Shown: piece after piece, positions 27,537 to 52,359 of the stretch | How the letters are laid out: the number at the start of each line of letters is the position of its first letter | Position numbering within the stretch: the first letter of the stretch is position 1 | DNA from: Candidatus Obscuribacterales bacterium | GTDB taxonomy: Bacteria; Cyanobacteriota; Vampirovibrionia; Obscuribacterales; Obscuribacteraceae | DNA length: 64,000 nt | Reading direction: 5' to 3' | Assembly: GCA_019744775.1 (NCBI GenBank) | Contig: JAIETZ010000003.1 | Location: forward strand, 62,001-126,000 | Translations under genes and position numbers: made by a program | The notes under the pieces: model-generated | Databases searched by the model: none | What the model was told of the DNA's origin: nothing | What the model saw: the letters and a program-made list of their open reading frames with translations, nothing else

Positions 27537-28070
27537 TTATGGTCCGCAGTGCAGAGATCCTAATACGTTACCAGGGGCTGGTGACTTTACAGGCATGTAG
27601 ACAGATGGTCCTTGTCCAATGTTGCGCATTCCTTCCAGCCAGCCGTCCCAAGTTGGAGCCAACGCAATAGGAGCCGCAGCAGTATCGGCGAGTTCAATTG
27701 TTGGTGGCAAAATTGGCAATCCGGTTTGTAAAACCGTGCATTTGCCGGTAACGGTTACAACCAATAAATTATTGGCGACTACAACTGTTGTTTTGGCATT
27801 GGACATAGGTAAAGCCAATGCTGCAATTAGTTGATTGGCTTTTGTCTGTCCGAGTTGATTCAAATCCTGACCGGGTTTAGCATCAGATAAGTAGTCTGCT
27901 ATTAGATCGGTAATCAAGCCAAGTTTTATTTTGTAGCTGTTGGCCAGATAAGAATCAGTGAGAAGAAGCACGGCTCCAATAGCTATTGCAATCACTATTG
28001 CTAAACCAACAGCACCTTCAACTAGCGACTGTGCGGATTGGCTTCTTCTAACAGTGTTAGGTTTGATCAT
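27537..28070 (-). CDS. TadE-like/pseudopilin-like protein, paralogue 3
   Basis: 177 residues. A polar start (VRRSQSAQSLVEG) leads into a single hydrophobic segment (about 15-38), as in TadE/TadG or type IV pilin-like proteins with a conserved Glu. The extracytoplasmic part resembles the two upstream genes: SYKIKLGLITDLIADYL matches YYKEKFSFITNHTAQFL, and the C-terminus shares WDGWL and GNV. It contains a Cys pair near the end (KCTV, LHCGP). ATG at 28068-28070 with AAGGG 7 bases upstream; GTG 28073 is alternative. Last of three tandem paralogues. Confidence 0.7.
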   Translation of the reverse strand: MIKPNTVRRSQSAQSLVEGAVGLAIVIAIAIGAVLLLTDSYLANSYKIKLGLITDLIADYLSDAKPGQDLNQLGQTKANQLIAALALPMSNAKTTVVVANNLLVVTVTGKCTVLQTGLPILPPTIELADTAAAPIALAPTWDGWLEGMRNIGQGPSVYMPVKSPAPGNVLGSLHCGP

Positions 28071-28080
28071 CACATTGCCC

Positions 28081-28611
28081 TTACGGAATGACGGTTTTGG
28101 TTTTTGTGATGCCTGTTACGTTGCCGATGGGAGAAAACTTTACGGGCACATAGTTATTGCTACCGGCGCCAAAGCACTGCAACCAGCCATCCCAACTCAT
28201 GCTGGTAGCGCTTGTGGTGCCTACGATTGCTGAACCTACATCCTTCACGGGAATACTTATCGGCAATAGATTTAGTCCGTTCTGGGACAGCTTACAGTTA
28301 CCCTCTATTGCTACTGTCACTAGCTGTCCGTTTTTTGTCACGTTTGCTTTTAGGTTCGTAATAGGCAGTTTCATGGCAGCGATCATTTGTTGGGCAGTTT
28401 GCAAGGCTTGTTGATCCATATTTTGTGAACTGCTGCTGCCGACAAGAAATTGTGCCGTATGGTTGGTAATGAAACTAAACTTCTCTTTGTAATAGTTGGC
28501 CAATCCCACATCACAAACAAGCACGGTGGCTACTGTCACCAGCCCAACCATGAAAGCAATTGCAATAACCGCTTCCACTAGTCCTTGCCCTTTTTGTTGG
28601 CGATGAGTCAT
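28081..28611 (-). CDS. TadE-like/pseudopilin-like protein, paralogue 2
   Basis: 176 residues from the ATG at 28609-28611, which overlaps the upstream stop (ATGA); the frame is open further upstream. KGQGLVEAVIAIAFMVGLVTV resembles a prepilin-type or TadE N-terminus with Glu five residues after a Gly. The outer part carries NYYKEKFSFITNHTAQFL, Cys residues in GNCKL and LQCFG, and the WDGWL...YVPVKFSPIGNVTG tail shared with paralogue 3. A minor pilin or assembly role is inference; no tad or pil assembly gene is nearby. Confidence 0.72.
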   Translation of the reverse strand: MTHRQQKGQGLVEAVIAIAFMVGLVTVATVLVCDVGLANYYKEKFSFITNHTAQFLVGSSSSQNMDQQALQTAQQMIAAMKLPITNLKANVTKNGQLVTVAIEGNCKLSQNGLNLLPISIPVKDVGSAIVGTTSATSMSWDGWLQCFGAGSNNYVPVKFSPIGNVTGITKTKTVIP

Positions 28612-29141
28612 TGCGTATACAAACCTGCGTGAGTAAAACCAACAACGGGTCCGGATGGGTTGGCTGGTGTATTGACGCAAGGGATATAACCGTTGACGAC
28701 GCCCACTGCTTGCACGCAGCCTGTCCAAGGGCCGTTTGAATTGGTTGGTGTAGGAGTTGCCGTCTCAGTATCAGTTAGTGTGATAGGTGCTGGTATTACA
28801 TTGACCTTACCGGTCAAAGTGACTTGCATTTGTTGGCTGTTGCCTTTGGCAGTAGCTGTTTGATCGTTTATCGTTAATCCCATGCTTGAGTAGAATTGTT
28901 GACTTAAGTCCTTTGTCTGGTCGTCGAGATTTTGGGAATTACTTGTTGAAAGTAAGTATTTCGCGCATTGTCCTGCTACGAAACTCATTTTCTCTTTGTA
29001 AGTATTAGACATTCCGGAACTGCATAAAAGTGTGCAGGCGGCTGCTGTTCCCAGAGCCAATAGAGTAATGGCAATGACGCCGGCAACAATGCCTTGTCCT
29101 TTTGAACTACGTTGCAGGTTACTCCGCACTTTTCTTTTCAT
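28608..29141 (-). CDS. TadE-like/pseudopilin-like protein, paralogue 1
   Basis: 177 residues, first of the tandem set. The basic start MKRKVRSNLQRSSKGQGIVAG leads to one hydrophobic segment (about 20-42). The Glu of the pilin-like motif is Ala here. NTYKEKMSFVAGQCAKYLLS matches the paralogues, as does a W-x-G-C motif near the end (PWTGCVQAVG) followed by YIPC. A Thr/Pro-rich stretch (TDTETATPTPTNS) looks like a flexible linker. No obvious terminator or promoter; 29142-29286 upstream holds nothing I recognise. Confidence 0.7.
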   Translation of the reverse strand: MKRKVRSNLQRSSKGQGIVAGVIAITLLALGTAAACTLLCSSGMSNTYKEKMSFVAGQCAKYLLSTSNSQNLDDQTKDLSQQFYSSMGLTINDQTATAKGNSQQMQVTLTGKVNVIPAPITLTDTETATPTPTNSNGPWTGCVQAVGVVNGYIPCVNTPANPSGPVVGFTHAGLYTQ

Positions 29142-45933: not shown

Positions 45934-47706
45934 TTATCGGGCTGATGACAAAACCTTCTCCAGGTCTTGTCTCTGATAAGGATCAAACTCAGTCTTAAGC
46001 TTTTGCTCGACTGCGCGACAGACAGCCTGTCCATGACCTTTTGAAGCCAATTGCAGAAGACTTGCTTTTGCTTGTCGCTTGATGGAAGGCTCTTTTGACT
46101 GACTAAGGGTGGCGACGGTTTTAGTTATTAGGTTGGTCATGCCTAACTGTCCGACAGCCTTATAAGCCACTACTTTCACAGGTGTAGACGGATCATTTAT
46201 GGCTTCCTCTACTAGATGAGCGCATTTGTCGTCCATGAGTCCCGGCTCGGAGGCAATTACCGATAATAATGATTCGAAAGCCATCTGTCGTTTGTCGGCG
46301 GCATAGTCACGACTAGCAGTGAAGAGCACTTCGTAGCTTTCCTTTGTCGGCAAAGTACCGAGGGCTCTCAGGATTATCCAGTAGGTTAATGCTGCTCGAG
46401 CATCTTCTTCCATTATCGGTTGCGCGCTCAATGGTTGAGAAGTACGTTCTTGCAAATTGACCAGTTTGTGCAGCATAGCAATTAGTCTGGGAACTGCTTG
46501 CTTATCTTTCAACAGAGATAAAGCGTCAATTGCTTCATTGGTGATAGGTGAATTGTTATCGAGGGCACGCTCTAGACTTTCATTTGCTTCAACGATGCCT
46601 AATTTGCCTGCTAAATATGCGGCATGACGCATTTGTCCAAGGGCGTCATTGTTTGCGTTTGCCGTGTTGTTTAAGCAGGCAACAATTGCATCGGCTGTTG
46701 ATTTATTGGCGAAACTATCGAGAATGGATTGAATCTCCGCATCGAGATTCGCTTCTGTTATTTGTTCCTGATTTTTCTTCAGCCAATTGGCCAGCATGAG
46801 GCTGGCGCGAATTTGTCTGGGTTCTGCTTTTGTTGCTTTACTAATTGTCGCAAAGCAGTCAGGTAAGCCAAGATCAAAGCCAATGTCGCTGTTGAATGTT
46901 TGTCCGGTGGCTTCGATAATCTGTATGACCATTTCCAGCGCGGCTTGGTAGACGATAGGATCATTTGTTTTCAGAAGCTCAGAAATTTTGTGTTGTCTGG
47001 CAACGGCTATAGACATGTAGTCTTGCAATGGATGTTTTGCCAATAGTGCATCTGCGAGTTCGTGAGAGATTATCGCTGAGGGCCATAAAGCTAAAGCTCT
47101 TGCTGTGTCTACGCGCAGCCAGTTTTCTTCGTCGTATAAATAGGGCAACAAGGCTTCTTTGGCTTGGTCGGTGCCAAGGCGACCAAGCGCGTAAGAAATA
47201 TGGGCAAATGAAATCTTGCCGTCGTATGTGGTGTCATCAAGCAATTTCGTCAAGTGATGAGAAGCTTGCTTGCAGTTGAGATCGGCTAGCATGCTGGCAG
47301 CATTTGCCCGCACGCGCCAGTCGCTGTTGCAGATTGGTACAACATTGGGATCAGCATTATCCTCATCTGCGGGCAGAAGAAGATCAATCATTTTCTGTCT
47401 AGCACCGTCTTCATTTGTTAGCTCAAGAACAATTGCCGCTAATTTCTCACCCCACCAGAGTGGTGGAATTTTCAAAGCAATTGATAGTTGGACAGAGCTT
47501 TCGGATTCCAGCGCTTGTTTTATATCGGCACGTACGTCACGAAATTCACGTTGGTTTTCCGGTGAAGAGCCAATCAGTCCATGATAGATAAGGAAGTGTT
47601 CCAGCTCAAAATCGTCGACAGCGACTTTAGGAGTTTCCTTCAGTCCGGAAGCCAAACGCTTGAATTGCTTTACCACTCTAGTGAATAATGTTGTCATAGC
47701 GCCCAT
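45934..47706 (-). CDS. HEAT-repeat protein
   Basis: About 590 residues of helical repeats of the HEAT/PBS type (RVRANAASMLADLNCKQASHHL, GKISFAHISYALGRLGTDQAKEAL, NEAIDALSLLKDKQAVPRLIAML, TPVKVVAYKAVGQLGMTNLI). No signal peptide, so a cytosolic scaffold. Met19 of the open frame (47706) is used here; Met22 (47697) is equally possible and neither has a strong ribosome site. Divergent from the MscS gene, 44 bases apart. Confidence 0.82.
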   Translation of the reverse strand: MGAMTTLFTRVVKQFKRLASGLKETPKVAVDDFELEHFLIYHGLIGSSPENQREFRDVRADIKQALESESSVQLSIALKIPPLWWGEKLAAIVLELTNEDGARQKMIDLLLPADEDNADPNVVPICNSDWRVRANAASMLADLNCKQASHHLTKLLDDTTYDGKISFAHISYALGRLGTDQAKEALLPYLYDEENWLRVDTARALALWPSAIISHELADALLAKHPLQDYMSIAVARQHKISELLKTNDPIVYQAALEMVIQIIEATGQTFNSDIGFDLGLPDCFATISKATKAEPRQIRASLMLANWLKKNQEQITEANLDAEIQSILDSFANKSTADAIVACLNNTANANNDALGQMRHAAYLAGKLGIVEANESLERALDNNSPITNEAIDALSLLKDKQAVPRLIAMLHKLVNLQERTSQPLSAQPIMEEDARAALTYWIILRALGTLPTKESYEVLFTASRDYAADKRQMAFESLLSVIASEPGLMDDKCAHLVEEAINDPSTPVKVVAYKAVGQLGMTNLITKTVATLSQSKEPSIKRQAKASLLQLASKGHGQAVCRAVEQKLKTEFDPYQRQDLEKVLSSAR

Positions 47707-47750
47707 TTTAGAATACCGGCGTTGCAAAAGGCAGAAAGGACGGTACAAAC

Positions 47751-48776
47751 TTGGACCCAAACGCTGATTTATGGCAGCACCTTGTTTACCTAGCCACGCG
47801 AGGCCCCATGGTTGTGCCTTTGTGGGCTGCAGGGCTCTGGCTTATTCTTCTTTTAACAAGGAAAGGTGTCTTAAAGATCACGTGGCATTGGCTGGGTGTC
47901 AAGGATGAAACGCTTGTTAAAGAGCTTAGTAATCGACTCGACGTGCCGTTTCAACTGCTTCTGGTGTTGTTAGCTGCTCTGCCATTTATTCGTATGATTG
48001 GCGGCGAGTTTGGACAGACGCTCGAGAAAGCCTCTTTCTTCATTGCAGCGTTTCTTGTCTGTCACGTACTTATTCAATCTTTGGACTTGCTGGTAGTCCG
48101 TTGGTATCTAGGCAAAGTAAAAGCGACAAGTGTTTCGCCGGCGTTTCACTTTCTGTTTTTTACTGTGTTGTATGTCTCAGTACTTTTGTTACTGATGGAT
48201 GCCGTTCTGAGCATGAATGTGTTGCCACTTCTTGCAACATCAACAATTGCTACGGCTGTTTTAGGTTTAGCATTGCAGGATACACTGAAAAATATATTTG
48301 CCGGTCTAACAATCAGCATGGAAAAGAGCTTCCGCCCAGGTGATTGGGTGATGTTTAAGATGGACAGTGGTGCGGAAATCCTCGGTGAAATCAGTGAAAT
48401 TGGTTGGCGTTCAATAAAAATACGCACGCATGCACGTAATTACTTGATGGTGCCGAATGCACAATTTCTGTCACAACAACTGATCAATTTGAGTTTCCCT
48501 AATTCGGTCCATGCAGTCATATTGGAAATTCCAGTGGCAAAGGAATTAGCACCACATACCGTTTCGCAAGCACTTTTGAAAGCCTTGGATTCAGTCAAGG
48601 AAGTTGCGGATGATCCAAAACCATCTGTTAGACCTGGCAAGATTTGCCCCGACGAAGTTATTTATAAGCTGCAGTATTTCACTGACAAGGTGACTGAAAA
48701 AGACCGCCTGAATGGACTTATTCTAGAAGCGGCATGGCAAGAGCTTTCTGCGATAGGCGCAATTGCTGCTAAGTGA
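47751..48776 (+). CDS. MscS-family mechanosensitive channel
   Basis: 341 residues: four or five hydrophobic helices (about 18-35, 65-82, 92-112, 128-150), the pore-lining helix TSTIATAVLGLALQDTLKNIFAGL, then the beta domain GDWVMFKMDSGAEILGEISEIGWRSIKIRT with YLMVPNAQFLSQQLINLS, and a C-terminal alpha-beta domain. It releases solutes on osmotic downshock. TTG start at 47751 with AAAGGACGG about 7 bases before it. Confidence 0.93.
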   Translation: MDPNADLWQHLVYLATRGPMVVPLWAAGLWLILLLTRKGVLKITWHWLGVKDETLVKELSNRLDVPFQLLLVLLAALPFIRMIGGEFGQTLEKASFFIAAFLVCHVLIQSLDLLVVRWYLGKVKATSVSPAFHFLFFTVLYVSVLLLLMDAVLSMNVLPLLATSTIATAVLGLALQDTLKNIFAGLTISMEKSFRPGDWVMFKMDSGAEILGEISEIGWRSIKIRTHARNYLMVPNAQFLSQQLINLSFPNSVHAVILEIPVAKELAPHTVSQALLKALDSVKEVADDPKPSVRPGKICPDEVIYKLQYFTDKVTEKDRLNGLILEAAWQELSAIGAIAAK

Positions 48777-48822
48777 TAAACTACAATGGCTATTACATAG
48801 CGTGGGCAGCCAGGAGGATCTT

Positions 48823-49962
48823 GTGAATACGTTCTTAAGTGCATCTCAGGAATCACTGAAGGAAAAATATCAGGCTTTTGCAAAGAGCACGATCGAGCCG
48901 CAGGCAAAGGCCCTGGAAGAGCACAAAGTTTCACTGAAAGATTTTCTCAAGACAGTCGGACAATCCGGCTATTGTGGTATCACTGTTCCGAAAGAATTCG
49001 GCGGACAGGGTGGTTCGCTTCTTGATCTGATTTTGTTTGTTGAATCGGCATGTTCATATGAGCCCGGCTTGGGCATGACTCTTGCTTGTCACACGGCAGC
49101 AATTGAGCTTATCAAAAAATATGGGAGCGAAACTCAGAAATCAAGATTCTTACCGCTTCTGGCTACTGGCGAAATTGTCGCCACCGTAGCTTTTGCTGAA
49201 GAAAACGCCGGCACCGATTGGCAGGCTGTAGAAACAAAAGCAATTAGTGAATCGGGCAAGCTTGTCTTAGACGGTAAAAAAGTTTGGACCGTTAATGGTG
49301 AAATTGCCGGCTTGATGGTTGTGCTTGTTCGCTCAGGCGACAAACTTTCATTGCTCTTGGTGAATTTAAATCCGGATGCTATTGCGGGCGGAACGTTGAA
49401 TTGCAGCCCTGATAAGGCACGCCTGGGTCTGCGTTCGTGCTTTGTAAACGATGTTGAGTTCAAAAGTATGAAAATTGCAGAGGACAGCTTGCTCGGCACA
49501 GACACTCAAGCGATTGCCATGGCCAATTATGTAGCCGATGTAGCGAAAGCAGTCTTATCTGCTTCTTGCATCGGACTAACCGAGGCTGCTCTCAAAGAAT
49601 CAGTTAAGCATGCTCGGGATCGCAAACAATTCGGTGTCAATATCGGGCAGTTCCAAGGAATTCAGTGGAAGTTGGCCGACATATCGACTGAACTAGAAGG
49701 AGCGCGCTTGCAGACTTATAGAGCCGCTTGGTCGCACGATGAACGTCCTGAGAATTTCCGCCGCTTTTCAGCAATGGCTAAATTGTTTGCCTCAAAAGTA
49801 GCAAAAGTCCACAGTGGCGAAGCCATGCAGGTTTTGGGTACTTTCGGTATTAGTGCTGATTCTGCATTGGAGCGCTTTTACAGAGACGCAAAAATGACCG
49901 AAATATGCCTGGGTACATCAGAGGCGCAGAAGTTAGTTTTAGTGGACGAACTGGGTATATAA
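48823..49962 (+). CDS. Acyl-CoA dehydrogenase homologue with altered active site
   Basis: About 379 residues with the full three-domain ACAD layout: GYCGITVPKEFGGQGGS, TVAFAEENAGTDWQAVETKA, KKVWTVNGEIAGLMVVL, ARDRKQFGVNIGQFQGIQWKLAD and FRDAK-type end RDAKMTEICLGTSEAQ. The catalytic Glu of the YEGT motif is Leu (CLGT), and the alternative Glu position of the isovaleryl type reads Ala (DVAKAVLSA). GTG 48823 with AGGAGGA 4 bases upstream is far better than the upstream ATG 48763. Flavin binding is likely; dehydrogenation is doubtful. Confidence 0.88.
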   Translation: MNTFLSASQESLKEKYQAFAKSTIEPQAKALEEHKVSLKDFLKTVGQSGYCGITVPKEFGGQGGSLLDLILFVESACSYEPGLGMTLACHTAAIELIKKYGSETQKSRFLPLLATGEIVATVAFAEENAGTDWQAVETKAISESGKLVLDGKKVWTVNGEIAGLMVVLVRSGDKLSLLLVNLNPDAIAGGTLNCSPDKARLGLRSCFVNDVEFKSMKIAEDSLLGTDTQAIAMANYVADVAKAVLSASCIGLTEAALKESVKHARDRKQFGVNIGQFQGIQWKLADISTELEGARLQTYRAAWSHDERPENFRRFSAMAKLFASKVAKVHSGEAMQVLGTFGISADSALERFYRDAKMTEICLGTSEAQKLVLVDELGI

Positions 49963-49989
49963 GCAGTTGACTACAATAGGGCGCCCAAG

Positions 49990-51147
49990 ATGAGAAACAA
50001 AATCCTCGCTTTGTCTGTCGCTTTTGGCTTTTGCATTTCTTCAATGTCCGCTTGGGGTGCTGCTTTTGAAGAAGGCGTAAAGCTTTTTGGACAGCGCAAC
50101 TTCAAAGCTGCTGCGCTGAAATTCGATCAGGCGGTAAAGAATAATCCCAATGACAGTAATGCCTTTTACTACAGAGCGCTTAATTATCAATATTTGGGCG
50201 ATAGAGCTAAAGCAAGTGCTGCCTACCAACAAATCATGCAAAAATTTCCTTATAGTACAGCAGCACAATATGCTCAACAAGCGCTAGCTCAGCCGGAAAA
50301 GCCGAGTCGTGCATCTAGAAGTTCGGGCACGCATGATTTTCAATCGTCTTTTGGCGCTGATCCGGAGCAGACAAAAATACACTTTACGAAACAAGGTAAG
50401 TCCTTGGTTGTTGATGCCGAGCTGAATAACAGGCGAATACCGGTAATTTTTGATACGGGTGCTGAGGATTGCGTGTTTGGTACAAATCACTTGAGGCAAC
50501 TTGGTATCAATCCACCGACAGGGCCGGCAACAGGACAGGCAGCCGGCGTAGGTTCGGCAGAGCCCGTCAAAACTTGGCAGATGAACGTTGAATTGAAAAT
50601 TGGTCAAATCAAGCGCTCAAATTTTCCCATCAGCGTTCAGGAAAACCTGCCTACAGAGCCACTTTTAGGACAATCATTTTTCAAAGACTTTGAATACACG
50701 ATTGACGACAGCATAAGTACAATAGAGTTATCGAAACGGGGTGGTGGTGCAAGGGCGTCTTCTGGTTCAGATAGTAATTCCGTGCCGTTTACACAAGAAG
50801 GTAAAGAATTAGTAGTAAGCGTGGATGTTAACGGCAAGAAGTGTCAGATGTATTTTGATACAGGAGCCGAAGGAATTACATTCACAAAAGAGCAAGCGCG
50901 GACACTTGGACTTTCCATACCGGAAGATGCTGAGCAAGGCACAAGCATGGGAATTGGCGGCACTACTAATTCTGTCAGTTTCACAGTGCAGAGAATGCGT
51001 ATGGGGCCAATTGAGAAAAGCGATATTCCGGTGAGTGTAATTGAGGCAGGTAAGATGCCGAAACCGCTTCTTGGTCAAACATTTTATGGTGGTTGGCAGT
51101 ACACAATCGATAACCAGAATAAGGTAATTAGGTTTCTAAGGCGCTAG
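49990..51147 (+). CDS. Secreted TPR protein with two retropepsin-like domains
   Basis: 385 residues: signal peptide (to about AWGAA), a short TPR region (about 25-100), then two similar clan AA aspartic protease domains. Domain 1 has VIFDTGAEDCVF (Asp155) and PLLGQSFF; domain 2 has MYFDTGAEGITF (Asp290) and PLLGQTFY. The catalytic motifs are about 135 residues apart. The pair could form one pepsin-like active site within the chain or two homodimeric sites. Both DTG triads are intact. 2 bases before the glycosyltransferase gene. Confidence 0.87.
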   Translation: MRNKILALSVAFGFCISSMSAWGAAFEEGVKLFGQRNFKAAALKFDQAVKNNPNDSNAFYYRALNYQYLGDRAKASAAYQQIMQKFPYSTAAQYAQQALAQPEKPSRASRSSGTHDFQSSFGADPEQTKIHFTKQGKSLVVDAELNNRRIPVIFDTGAEDCVFGTNHLRQLGINPPTGPATGQAAGVGSAEPVKTWQMNVELKIGQIKRSNFPISVQENLPTEPLLGQSFFKDFEYTIDDSISTIELSKRGGGARASSGSDSNSVPFTQEGKELVVSVDVNGKKCQMYFDTGAEGITFTKEQARTLGLSIPEDAEQGTSMGIGGTTNSVSFTVQRMRMGPIEKSDIPVSVIEAGKMPKPLLGQTFYGGWQYTIDNQNKVIRFLRR

Positions 51148-51149
51148 GC

Positions 51150-51920
51150 ATGAAAAAGCCGACTCTTTCTGTTGTGATAATTGCCCTCAATGAAGAGAGG
51201 CACATAGGCGATGTGTTGGCTGCGGCAACGCCTCTTGCAGACGAGATCATTCTCGTTGATTCCGGATCGACAGATAGAACTATTGAAATCGCAAAGAGCT
51301 TTAACGCAAAAGTCATTCATCAAGATTGGTTGGGTTACGGTAAACAAAAAAACTTTGCTATTGCGCAGGCTACCAGCGACTGGATATTGAGCCTTGATGG
51401 TGACGAGATAATGACACCGGAGCTTGTTGCAGAAATTGGTGCTGTTTTGGAAAGCTCGCGCATAAACGAATTTGATGGCTTCAAAATCCCGCGCATGCTT
51501 CATGTAGGTGGTGTGCCTATAGCGCATGGTGGATTCTACCCGGACAGGCATTTGCGCCTTTTTCGTCGCGGCAAGGGCAAGTTTAACGACCGGCTTGTGC
51601 ATGAATCTGTAGTCGTTGATGGACCGCTGGATAATCTCAATCACGCTCTTAAAAATATGGCTTACGAAAACCCGCAGGAGTTTGCCCAGTCAATGGAAAA
51701 CTTTGCGCGCTTGTCGGCCAAGCAGCGACTAGTGAGCGGCGCAAGCTGGTGGCATACAAGCAGAATCAATGAGTTGATTCATCCCGGTTGGACATTTGTC
51801 TATCGCTATTTCGCACGCCTGGGCTTTTTAGATGGATCACTTGGGCTGCAGTTGCAGCTTGCGTACAGTGATTACGTGCGCAATAAGATCAAATACTTGC
51901 GCGACGAAATAAAGAAATAG
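51150..51920 (+). CDS. Family 2 glycosyltransferase (WaaE/KdtX-like)
   Basis: 256 residues: LSVVIIALNEERHIGDVL, VDSGSTDRTIEIAKSF, DWLGYGKQKNFA, and the metal-binding LSLDGDE, followed by HLRLFRRGKGKFNDRLVHE, the pattern of beta-1,4-glucosyltransferases acting on lipopolysaccharide core or other envelope glycans. The acceptor is not known. Starts 2 bases after the retropepsin-like gene and likely shares its transcript. Confidence 0.92.
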   Translation: MKKPTLSVVIIALNEERHIGDVLAAATPLADEIILVDSGSTDRTIEIAKSFNAKVIHQDWLGYGKQKNFAIAQATSDWILSLDGDEIMTPELVAEIGAVLESSRINEFDGFKIPRMLHVGGVPIAHGGFYPDRHLRLFRRGKGKFNDRLVHESVVVDGPLDNLNHALKNMAYENPQEFAQSMENFARLSAKQRLVSGASWWHTSRINELIHPGWTFVYRYFARLGFLDGSLGLQLQLAYSDYVRNKIKYLRDEIKK

Positions 51921-51931
51921 GTCAAAAAATA

Positions 51932-51956
51932 AGAGGCGCATGTAATGCGCCCCTTA
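51932..51956. repeat. Dispersed palindrome, copy 5 (opposite orientation)
   Basis: GAGGCGCATGTAATGCGCCCC; its reverse complement GGGGCGCATTACATGCGCCTC differs from copy 3 only by A for G in the centre and one end base. It lies between the convergent glycosyltransferase and khpA genes. Confidence 0.65.
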
Positions 51957-51978
51957 CAAAGATAATCACAAGACCGGA

Positions 51979-52359
51979 CTAGTACTCGTCTGAGTGTTGC
52001 TCTTCACCTTGAGAGTTGATATCGATGTCGACCTTTTTGCCACGGCGGCTGGCGGCTGATTTAACCAGCAGGCGTAGTGCAGAAATGGTCTTGCCGCCTT
52101 TGCCGATAAGTCTGCCCGTATGTTCGGGATCGCAACTTACGGACAAGCGGAGGCGTCTTTCGTCGATGGGTTCTCTGATGAACTGGATACTGGAGGAATC
52201 GCGCGCCAGCACAGTGAGGACGTACTGCGCTAAATCCTCGGCAGCGGTTGAGTCACTGACGGGGACATATTCTCTTTCGCGACGGTAACCGCCTAGCCTG
52301 CGGCCTTTTTGATAAGGCTTGCGACTGTCTCTGTAGGTTGAGCGCCGTTCTTGATCCAT
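51979..52359 (-). CDS. khpA: KH-domain RNA-binding protein (KhpA-like)
   Basis: 126 residues. The KH domain occupies about 45-115 with [18 protein letters not shown]. The usual protein is about 75-80 residues; here about 40 extra N-terminal residues are basic and Arg/Tyr-rich ([20 protein letters not shown]). With this start the gene overlaps the 3' end of rpsP by 67 bases, and no later Met is available. The ffh-rpsP-khpA order is widely conserved. Confidence 0.87.

Follow-up and report, generated by a model that had tools for sequence, protein, structure and literature searches.

The window analyzed here, a stretch of 64,000 nucleotides from a Candidatus Obscuribacterales bacterium, very probably encodes a single-chain aspartic protease in which two duplicated lobes form one pepsin-like active site; we infer both export and proteolysis for this protein. 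One retropepsin-like domain was duplicated, and the two resulting lobes, joined by a flexible Ser/Gly tether, would be folded against one another. In the inter-lobe cleft, D155 (lobe 1) and D290 (lobe 2) would make up one catalytic dyad, as in pepsin or in the tethered HIV-1 protease dimer. Recruitment of a substrate or a partner, either periplasmic or extracellular, is the probable role of the N-terminal TPR segment, and the DTGA in both lobes suggests that the pH optimum may be closer to neutral than that of pepsin.

Gene and domain organization

The initial annotation had assigned two tandem retropepsin-like domains to an open reading frame at 49990-51147, and both the coordinates and the domains proved right (Table 1). 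Asp_protease_2 was detected twice in the protein (PF13650, 8.4e-30, 103.8 bits with the cut-off at 24.3), RVP was found above its Pfam cut-off (30.9 vs 20.7) and gag-asp_proteas also scored over its own. The NCBIfam model TIGR02281 (clan AA aspartic protease) matched the whole protein in two stretches with 89.4 bits (cut-off 57.95). The protein thus belongs to the retropepsin-like members of clan AA, both by these profile scores and by the DTGA and LLG motifs found in each lobe. Judging from their position, we take G186-V-G-S189 and G321-I-G-G324 to be the equivalents of the retropepsin flaps.

By inspection, the N-terminus displayed a basic start and a hydrophobic core, the hydropathy reaching 2.6 in a 12-residue stretch, and these features suggest that the protein is secreted or exported. 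A lipobox was not recognized in this N-terminus by eye. The TPR ahead of the lobes, which had also been annotated initially, is short but real. It was matched by TPR_2 (Pfam, 3.2e-5, under the curated cut-off) and by a YbgF-like model (NCBIfam, 9.4e-7), and the full-length structural model contained four helices at residues 38-99.

Table 1. Features of the two-lobed protease gene and of the adjacent genes (positions in the window)
Feature	Position	Strand	Basis or remark
MscS-type mechanosensitive channel gene	47751..48776	+	PF00924 1.9e-17; conserved in 5/12 named loci
Acyl-CoA dehydrogenase gene	48763..49962	+	Conserved in the same 5/12 named loci
Whole ORF: signal-like N-terminus, TPR segment, two retropepsin-like lobes	49990..51147	+	385 aa, ATG start
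Signal-peptide-like N-terminus, residues ~1-24	49990..50061	+	Sequence inspection, hydropathy
TPR segment, residues ~25-100	50062..50289	+	Pfam/NCBIfam matches, model helices 38-99
Lobe 1, residues 125-250	50362..50739	+	Pfam/HMM and model
Catalytic triplet D155-T156-G157	50452..50460	+	D155 and G157 invariant in 38/38 aligned homologues
Flap motif of lobe 1, G186-V-G-S189	50545..50556	+	Alignment
Hydrophobic-hydrophobic-Gly motif of lobe 1, L225-L-G227	50662..50670	+	G227 invariant in 38/38 homologues
Ser/Gly-rich tether between lobes, residues 251-262	50740..50775	+	pLDDT <50 at 252-259
Lobe 2, residues 261-385	50770..51144	+	Pfam/HMM and model
Catalytic triplet D290-T291-G292	50857..50865	+	D290 and G292 invariant in 38/38 aligned homologues
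Flap motif of lobe 2, G321-I-G-G324	50950..50961	+	Alignment; model hairpin 315-321/324-338
Hydrophobic-hydrophobic-Gly motif of lobe 2, L360-L-G362	51067..51075	+	L360 and G362 invariant in 38/38
Family 2 glycosyltransferase gene	51150..51920	+	Conserved in the same 5/12 named loci

Similarity of the two halves

DTGAE is located at D155 and D290, a spacing of 135 residues, and PLLGQ at residues 224 and 359. The two lobes shared 34% identity over 123 columns (BLASTP with a one-sequence database, 4e-25). The Smith-Waterman score between the halves was 197, while 1000 shuffles averaged 28 and never exceeded 60, ruling out a chance resemblance. The internal duplication, first read from DTGAE and PLLGQ motifs about 135 residues apart, is therefore borne out by the motif positions, the double Pfam match and the identity between the lobes.

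Predicted structure

The window protein was modeled by AlphaFold2 together with 14 homologues (an alignment of 15 rows), both at full length and for residues 122-385. The full-length model had a pLDDT of 82.6 and a pTM of 0.65. For residues 122-385 alone these values were 88.9 and 0.83, and the halves were packed as one bilobed unit. Since independently floating lobes should score far less, a pTM of 0.83 argues for intramolecular packing.

The best structural match of the two-lobe model was 9IY9, a crystal structure from Bacteroides fragilis (248 residues, 3.3 A, Z 21.1, 16% identity). The tethered HIV-1 protease 1lv1 was superposed with both lobes together (192/198 residues, 3.2 A, Z 17.0), and renin 5kos (237 residues, Z 17.0) and human pepsin 1pso (228 residues, Z 16.4) were aligned across both lobes. 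The structural matches of the full-length model gave the same picture. PE_PGRS16 (4EHC) was absent among the best 50 matches listed in either structural comparison, which does not by itself exclude it.

A short distance between Asp155 and Asp290 is implied by these superpositions. The predicted model displays a pepsin-like architecture, with two lobes, one cleft and one Asp in each lobe, as given by a program whose training presumably included pepsins and tethered HIV proteases, and the joint motif loss described below agrees with it. A 9IY9-type fold with both lobes in one chain is likewise predicted, with Z 21.1 over 248 residues. A model with the DTG sites far apart had been named beforehand as evidence against a pepsin-like monomer, and the model obtained did not refute it, being superposed as one body on two-lobed enzymes. 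The initial suggestion that the covalent pair acts as a pepsin-like monomer thus gains support from the pTM, from the superpositions with Z 17.0 and 16.4, and from three joint losses of the catalytic triplet.

Distribution in Obscuribacterales and the phylum

The window (C3:62001-126000) is part of a 4.1-Mb genome of the Obscuribacterales group (Melainabacteria), a lineage related to cyanobacteria but non-photosynthetic. The nearest named relatives were Candidatus Obscuribacterales or Melainabacteria records, some of them differently labeled (Chloroflexi, 'uncultured bacterium' or 'Cyanobacteria bacterium'). Matches to the two-lobe profile were detected in all 53 genomes of the order and spanned both lobes in 51 of them, which rules out a single odd gene. 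The two exceptions, G020 and G022, were only 66% and 65% complete.

A PF13650 census of 10 genomes of the order, including the window's own, detected 95 domains in 51 frames. By PF13650 alone, 44 frames contained exactly two domains and seven contained one. On inspection, six of these seven had a degenerate or weak second half and L109 (513 aa) was truly single, so that 50 of the 51 frames were tandems, comprising 36 short, window-like frames and 14 long ones. All 10 PF13650 domains of the window's own genome were arranged as five pairs. The long tandem family (about 570-940 aa) mostly carries a C-terminal TPR-like region, and both triplets were intact in all 14 frames, with the second DTG of L110, which the automatic alignment missed, read from its sequence. 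Two long members, L100 (301-2664) and L103 (568-2898), are both located on contig C3 of genome G000; each had about 780 aa, two DTG lobes and, by eye, a C-terminal TPR-like region. No Pfam match was found in the N-terminal region of L100 (about 290 aa).

In a sample of 292 genomes of the phylum, 87 genomes, including the window's own, matched the profile, and nearly all matches covered one lobe. Outside the order, proteins with two DTGA lobes were found only in G202 and G162 of this sample. In the same class, all eight fetched members of family f5 (L081-L088) displayed one DTGA lobe, at the C-terminus, and an N-terminal stretch ahead of it that looked hydrophobic by eye; TPRs were present in L082, the one scanned. 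The f5 layout possibly represents the architecture before duplication; the tree does not place f5 as a sister. A plasmid search gave six matches among 72,556 records, with at most 36% of the two-lobe query covered.

Origin of the pair

A lobe tree was calculated from 75 lobes. It took in 19 of the 37 tandem proteins (A3), eight of the 14 long proteins of the census, L109 and a further 16 single lobes, which came from 12 of 20 fetched loci (four of the eight f5 loci omitted). In this tree, whose bootstrap had not settled, lobe 1 of the short family formed one clade (99/98), and lobes 1 and 2 of the short family formed one group (99/97) apart from the long family, the cyanobacterial tandems and the single lobes. 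The short lobe 2 was not one clade in the best tree. Within the short family, lobes 1 and 2 were on average 30.7% identical, compared with 17-26% to any other group.

The AU test did not reject a grouping of short lobe 1 with lobe 1 of the long family (p 0.286) or with lobe 1 of the cyanobacterial tandems (p 0.171). Considering the tree and the identities together with this test, a duplication private to the short Obscuribacterales family is favored but not shown. One old duplication common to the other bacterial tandems, namely the long family, the cyanobacterial tandems and 9IY9, is a credible though somewhat doubtful explanation. It agrees with both AU results and with the length of the lobe alignment, only 125 columns, but it conflicts with the union of both short lobes away from all others in the best tree and with their higher identity to each other than to every other group.

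As for a re-invention of the pepsin architecture in Obscuribacterales, we consider the case evenly balanced. A single lobe of cyanobacterial lineage would have been duplicated and fused once before the order diversified and then multiplied to several copies per genome, and some copies would have decayed in both lobes; the long family and the cyanobacterial tandems would then be further independent origins. The initial annotation had proposed an independent parallel to pepsin. The grouping of both short lobes speaks for this part of the proposal, while independence is unproven as long as a shared duplication is not rejected.

Joint loss of the catalytic triplet

The D-[TS]-G state of both lobes was compared in 86 short tandems, consisting of the 36 from the 10-genome census and 50 frames with at least two lobes; the latter came from 52 places with weaker scores among 38 further genomes. 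Eleven short contig-end fragments were left out of this second sample, as were all frames with more than about 218 bits, the long family, further low scorers and frames of unusual length. Genomes G045, G046, G047, G359 and G360 entered the 53-genome profile search only and neither triplet sample. The triplet was intact in both lobes of 75 tandems, lost in both lobes of 10 and altered on one side in one, a 75:10:1 ratio that is not a population frequency, as the second sample consisted by design of weaker short members and was enriched in degenerate copies. A loss confined to lobe 1 was found in none of the 86. The one alteration confined to lobe 2 belonged to L003, a paralogue in the window's own genome, which has D-L-G and keeps the Asp. 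Some of the lost copies keep the Asp as well, with T/S or G replaced, such as L114 (D-P-A with D-P-N).

A tree calculated without the motif columns required four state changes, namely the alteration in L003 and three independent joint losses. The joint losses occurred in a clade of six (L114, L170, L174, L196, L197 and L199), in a clade of three (L111-L113) and in L173, all of which are probable pseudoproteases as judged from their sequences. An RGExGW-like insertion in lobe 2 was common to several members of the clade of six. In the three-lobed L160 (363-2024) and L161 (372-2498), the additional lobe comes first and lacks the triplet, while the two lobes after it are intact; both proteins were scored by their last two lobes. 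In the lone-lobe proteins L204 (557-1507) and L205 (143-1240), F-E-P-E replaces F-D-T-G.

With a separate homodimeric site for each lobe, losses in one lobe only should be expected at times, and the joint loss of the triplets therefore suggests that both lobes contribute to a single active site. The pattern agrees with a dyad common to both lobes, but the events number only three, and in any one lineage decay after the first loss might simply account for the second.

It seems unlikely that the protein, with the fold described above, has ceased to be a protease, or serves as one only in a minor way, and acts as a binding module. Triplet-less paralogues do exist (10 of the 86 tandems and the two lone-lobe proteins), but D-T-G-A is kept in both lobes of the window copy and of its nearest homologues. 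A two-lobed protease, putatively a working enzyme, is thus most likely from sequence and model. It is very improbable that two chains come together lobe by lobe, lobe 1 with lobe 1 and lobe 2 with lobe 2, in two separate homodimeric sites: single-lobe bacterial relatives such as RloA are reported to act as dimers (PMC12239564) and both lobes keep a complete motif set, but intramolecular packing is predicted, the triplets were lost jointly, and exactly two lobes of the three-lobed L160 and L161 carry the triplet.

Genomic neighborhood

The gene order MscS-type channel, acyl-CoA dehydrogenase, protease, family 2 glycosyltransferase and KhpA-like protein was conserved in five of the 12 named loci (L038-L042), which represent the closest orthologues by position. 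A further neighbor, presumably Ffh from its sequence, was also kept in four of the five. A HEAT-repeat protein is likewise part of the neighborhood conserved across genera (window 45934-52359), and no HEAT match was found in L041. The glycosyltransferase gene starts 2 bases past the stop codon of the protease gene, suggesting that both may be co-transcribed. Under hypoosmotic stress, Pseudomonas is reported to need its RloA proteases, which are exported and have a single lobe (PMC12239564), and by analogy it is no more than a reasonable guess that the protease locus is tied to envelope or osmotic stress.

Elsewhere in the window (27537-29141, minus strand), three consecutive small proteins had similar pilin-like N-termini of the GQGLVEAVIAIAF type by eye, and are perhaps TadE-like or pseudopilin paralogues.

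Comparison with known aspartic proteases

Bilobed bacterial aspartic proteases are already known, namely PecA/PE_PGRS16, 9IY9 and bacterial A1 pepsins. 9IY9, a putative endopeptidase ('exported protein') of B. fragilis, has both lobes in one chain like the window protein, but it belongs to a different phylum and shares low identity (16%). A literature search of open-licence papers found no paper on 9IY9. Among the papers listed, the same search found no description of the Obscuribacterales two-lobed family under this subject, tandem or single-chain bacterial retropepsins, or aspartic proteases of Obscuribacterales or Melainabacteria.

Each lobe of the window protein is of the TIGR02281 / Asp_protease_2 family, but the model of this family is one lobe long, whereas the window protein has two lobes and a TPR. 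Retropepsins (A2) are homodimers with one lobe per chain, and two lobes per chain were found here. RloA of Pseudomonas resembles the window protein in being an exported DTGA retropepsin-like lobe, but it has a single lobe. APRc and RimB are further single-lobe bacterial retropepsin-like proteases.

The mycobacterial PecA (PE_PGRS35) and PE_PGRS16 (PDB 4EHC) are exported single-chain aspartic proteases with two motifs (DTG/DSG), as proposed here. They contain the PE domain of type VII secretion, whereas the window protein contains a TPR instead. PecA is described as an active surface protease (PMC6819658). The PE_PGRS aspartic protease domain PF20729 scored 19.3 bits (7.9e-4) in the window protein, below its cut-off of 33.

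The pepsin family A1, to which bacterial pepsins such as shewasin also belong, has two lobes with one Asp each, and the window model aligns with it over both. Membership in A1 was rejected by profile: the Pfam search listed 16 families at E up to 10, and none of these was a pepsin family. Bacterial A1 members are described as having no signal peptides, and A1 lobes as sharing only the active-site and hydrophobic-hydrophobic-Gly motifs (PMC2761423), whereas the halves of the window protein are 34% identical.

Pepsin is thought to derive from a fused pair of retropepsin-like halves, and the same source presents it as debated whether the one-lobed or the two-lobed form came first (PMC2761423). 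In Obscuribacterales nearly all domains are paired, the halves are 31-34% identical and single-lobe relatives exist in the same phylum, which makes the fusion step open to experiment. The extra or lone lobes without the catalytic triplet add to the value of the order for studying this step. If the re-invention is true, the step postulated for pepsin would have occurred repeatedly, seen here with halves still about one third identical. The value of the Obscuribacterales family thus lies in a pepsin-type fusion that is still recognizable.
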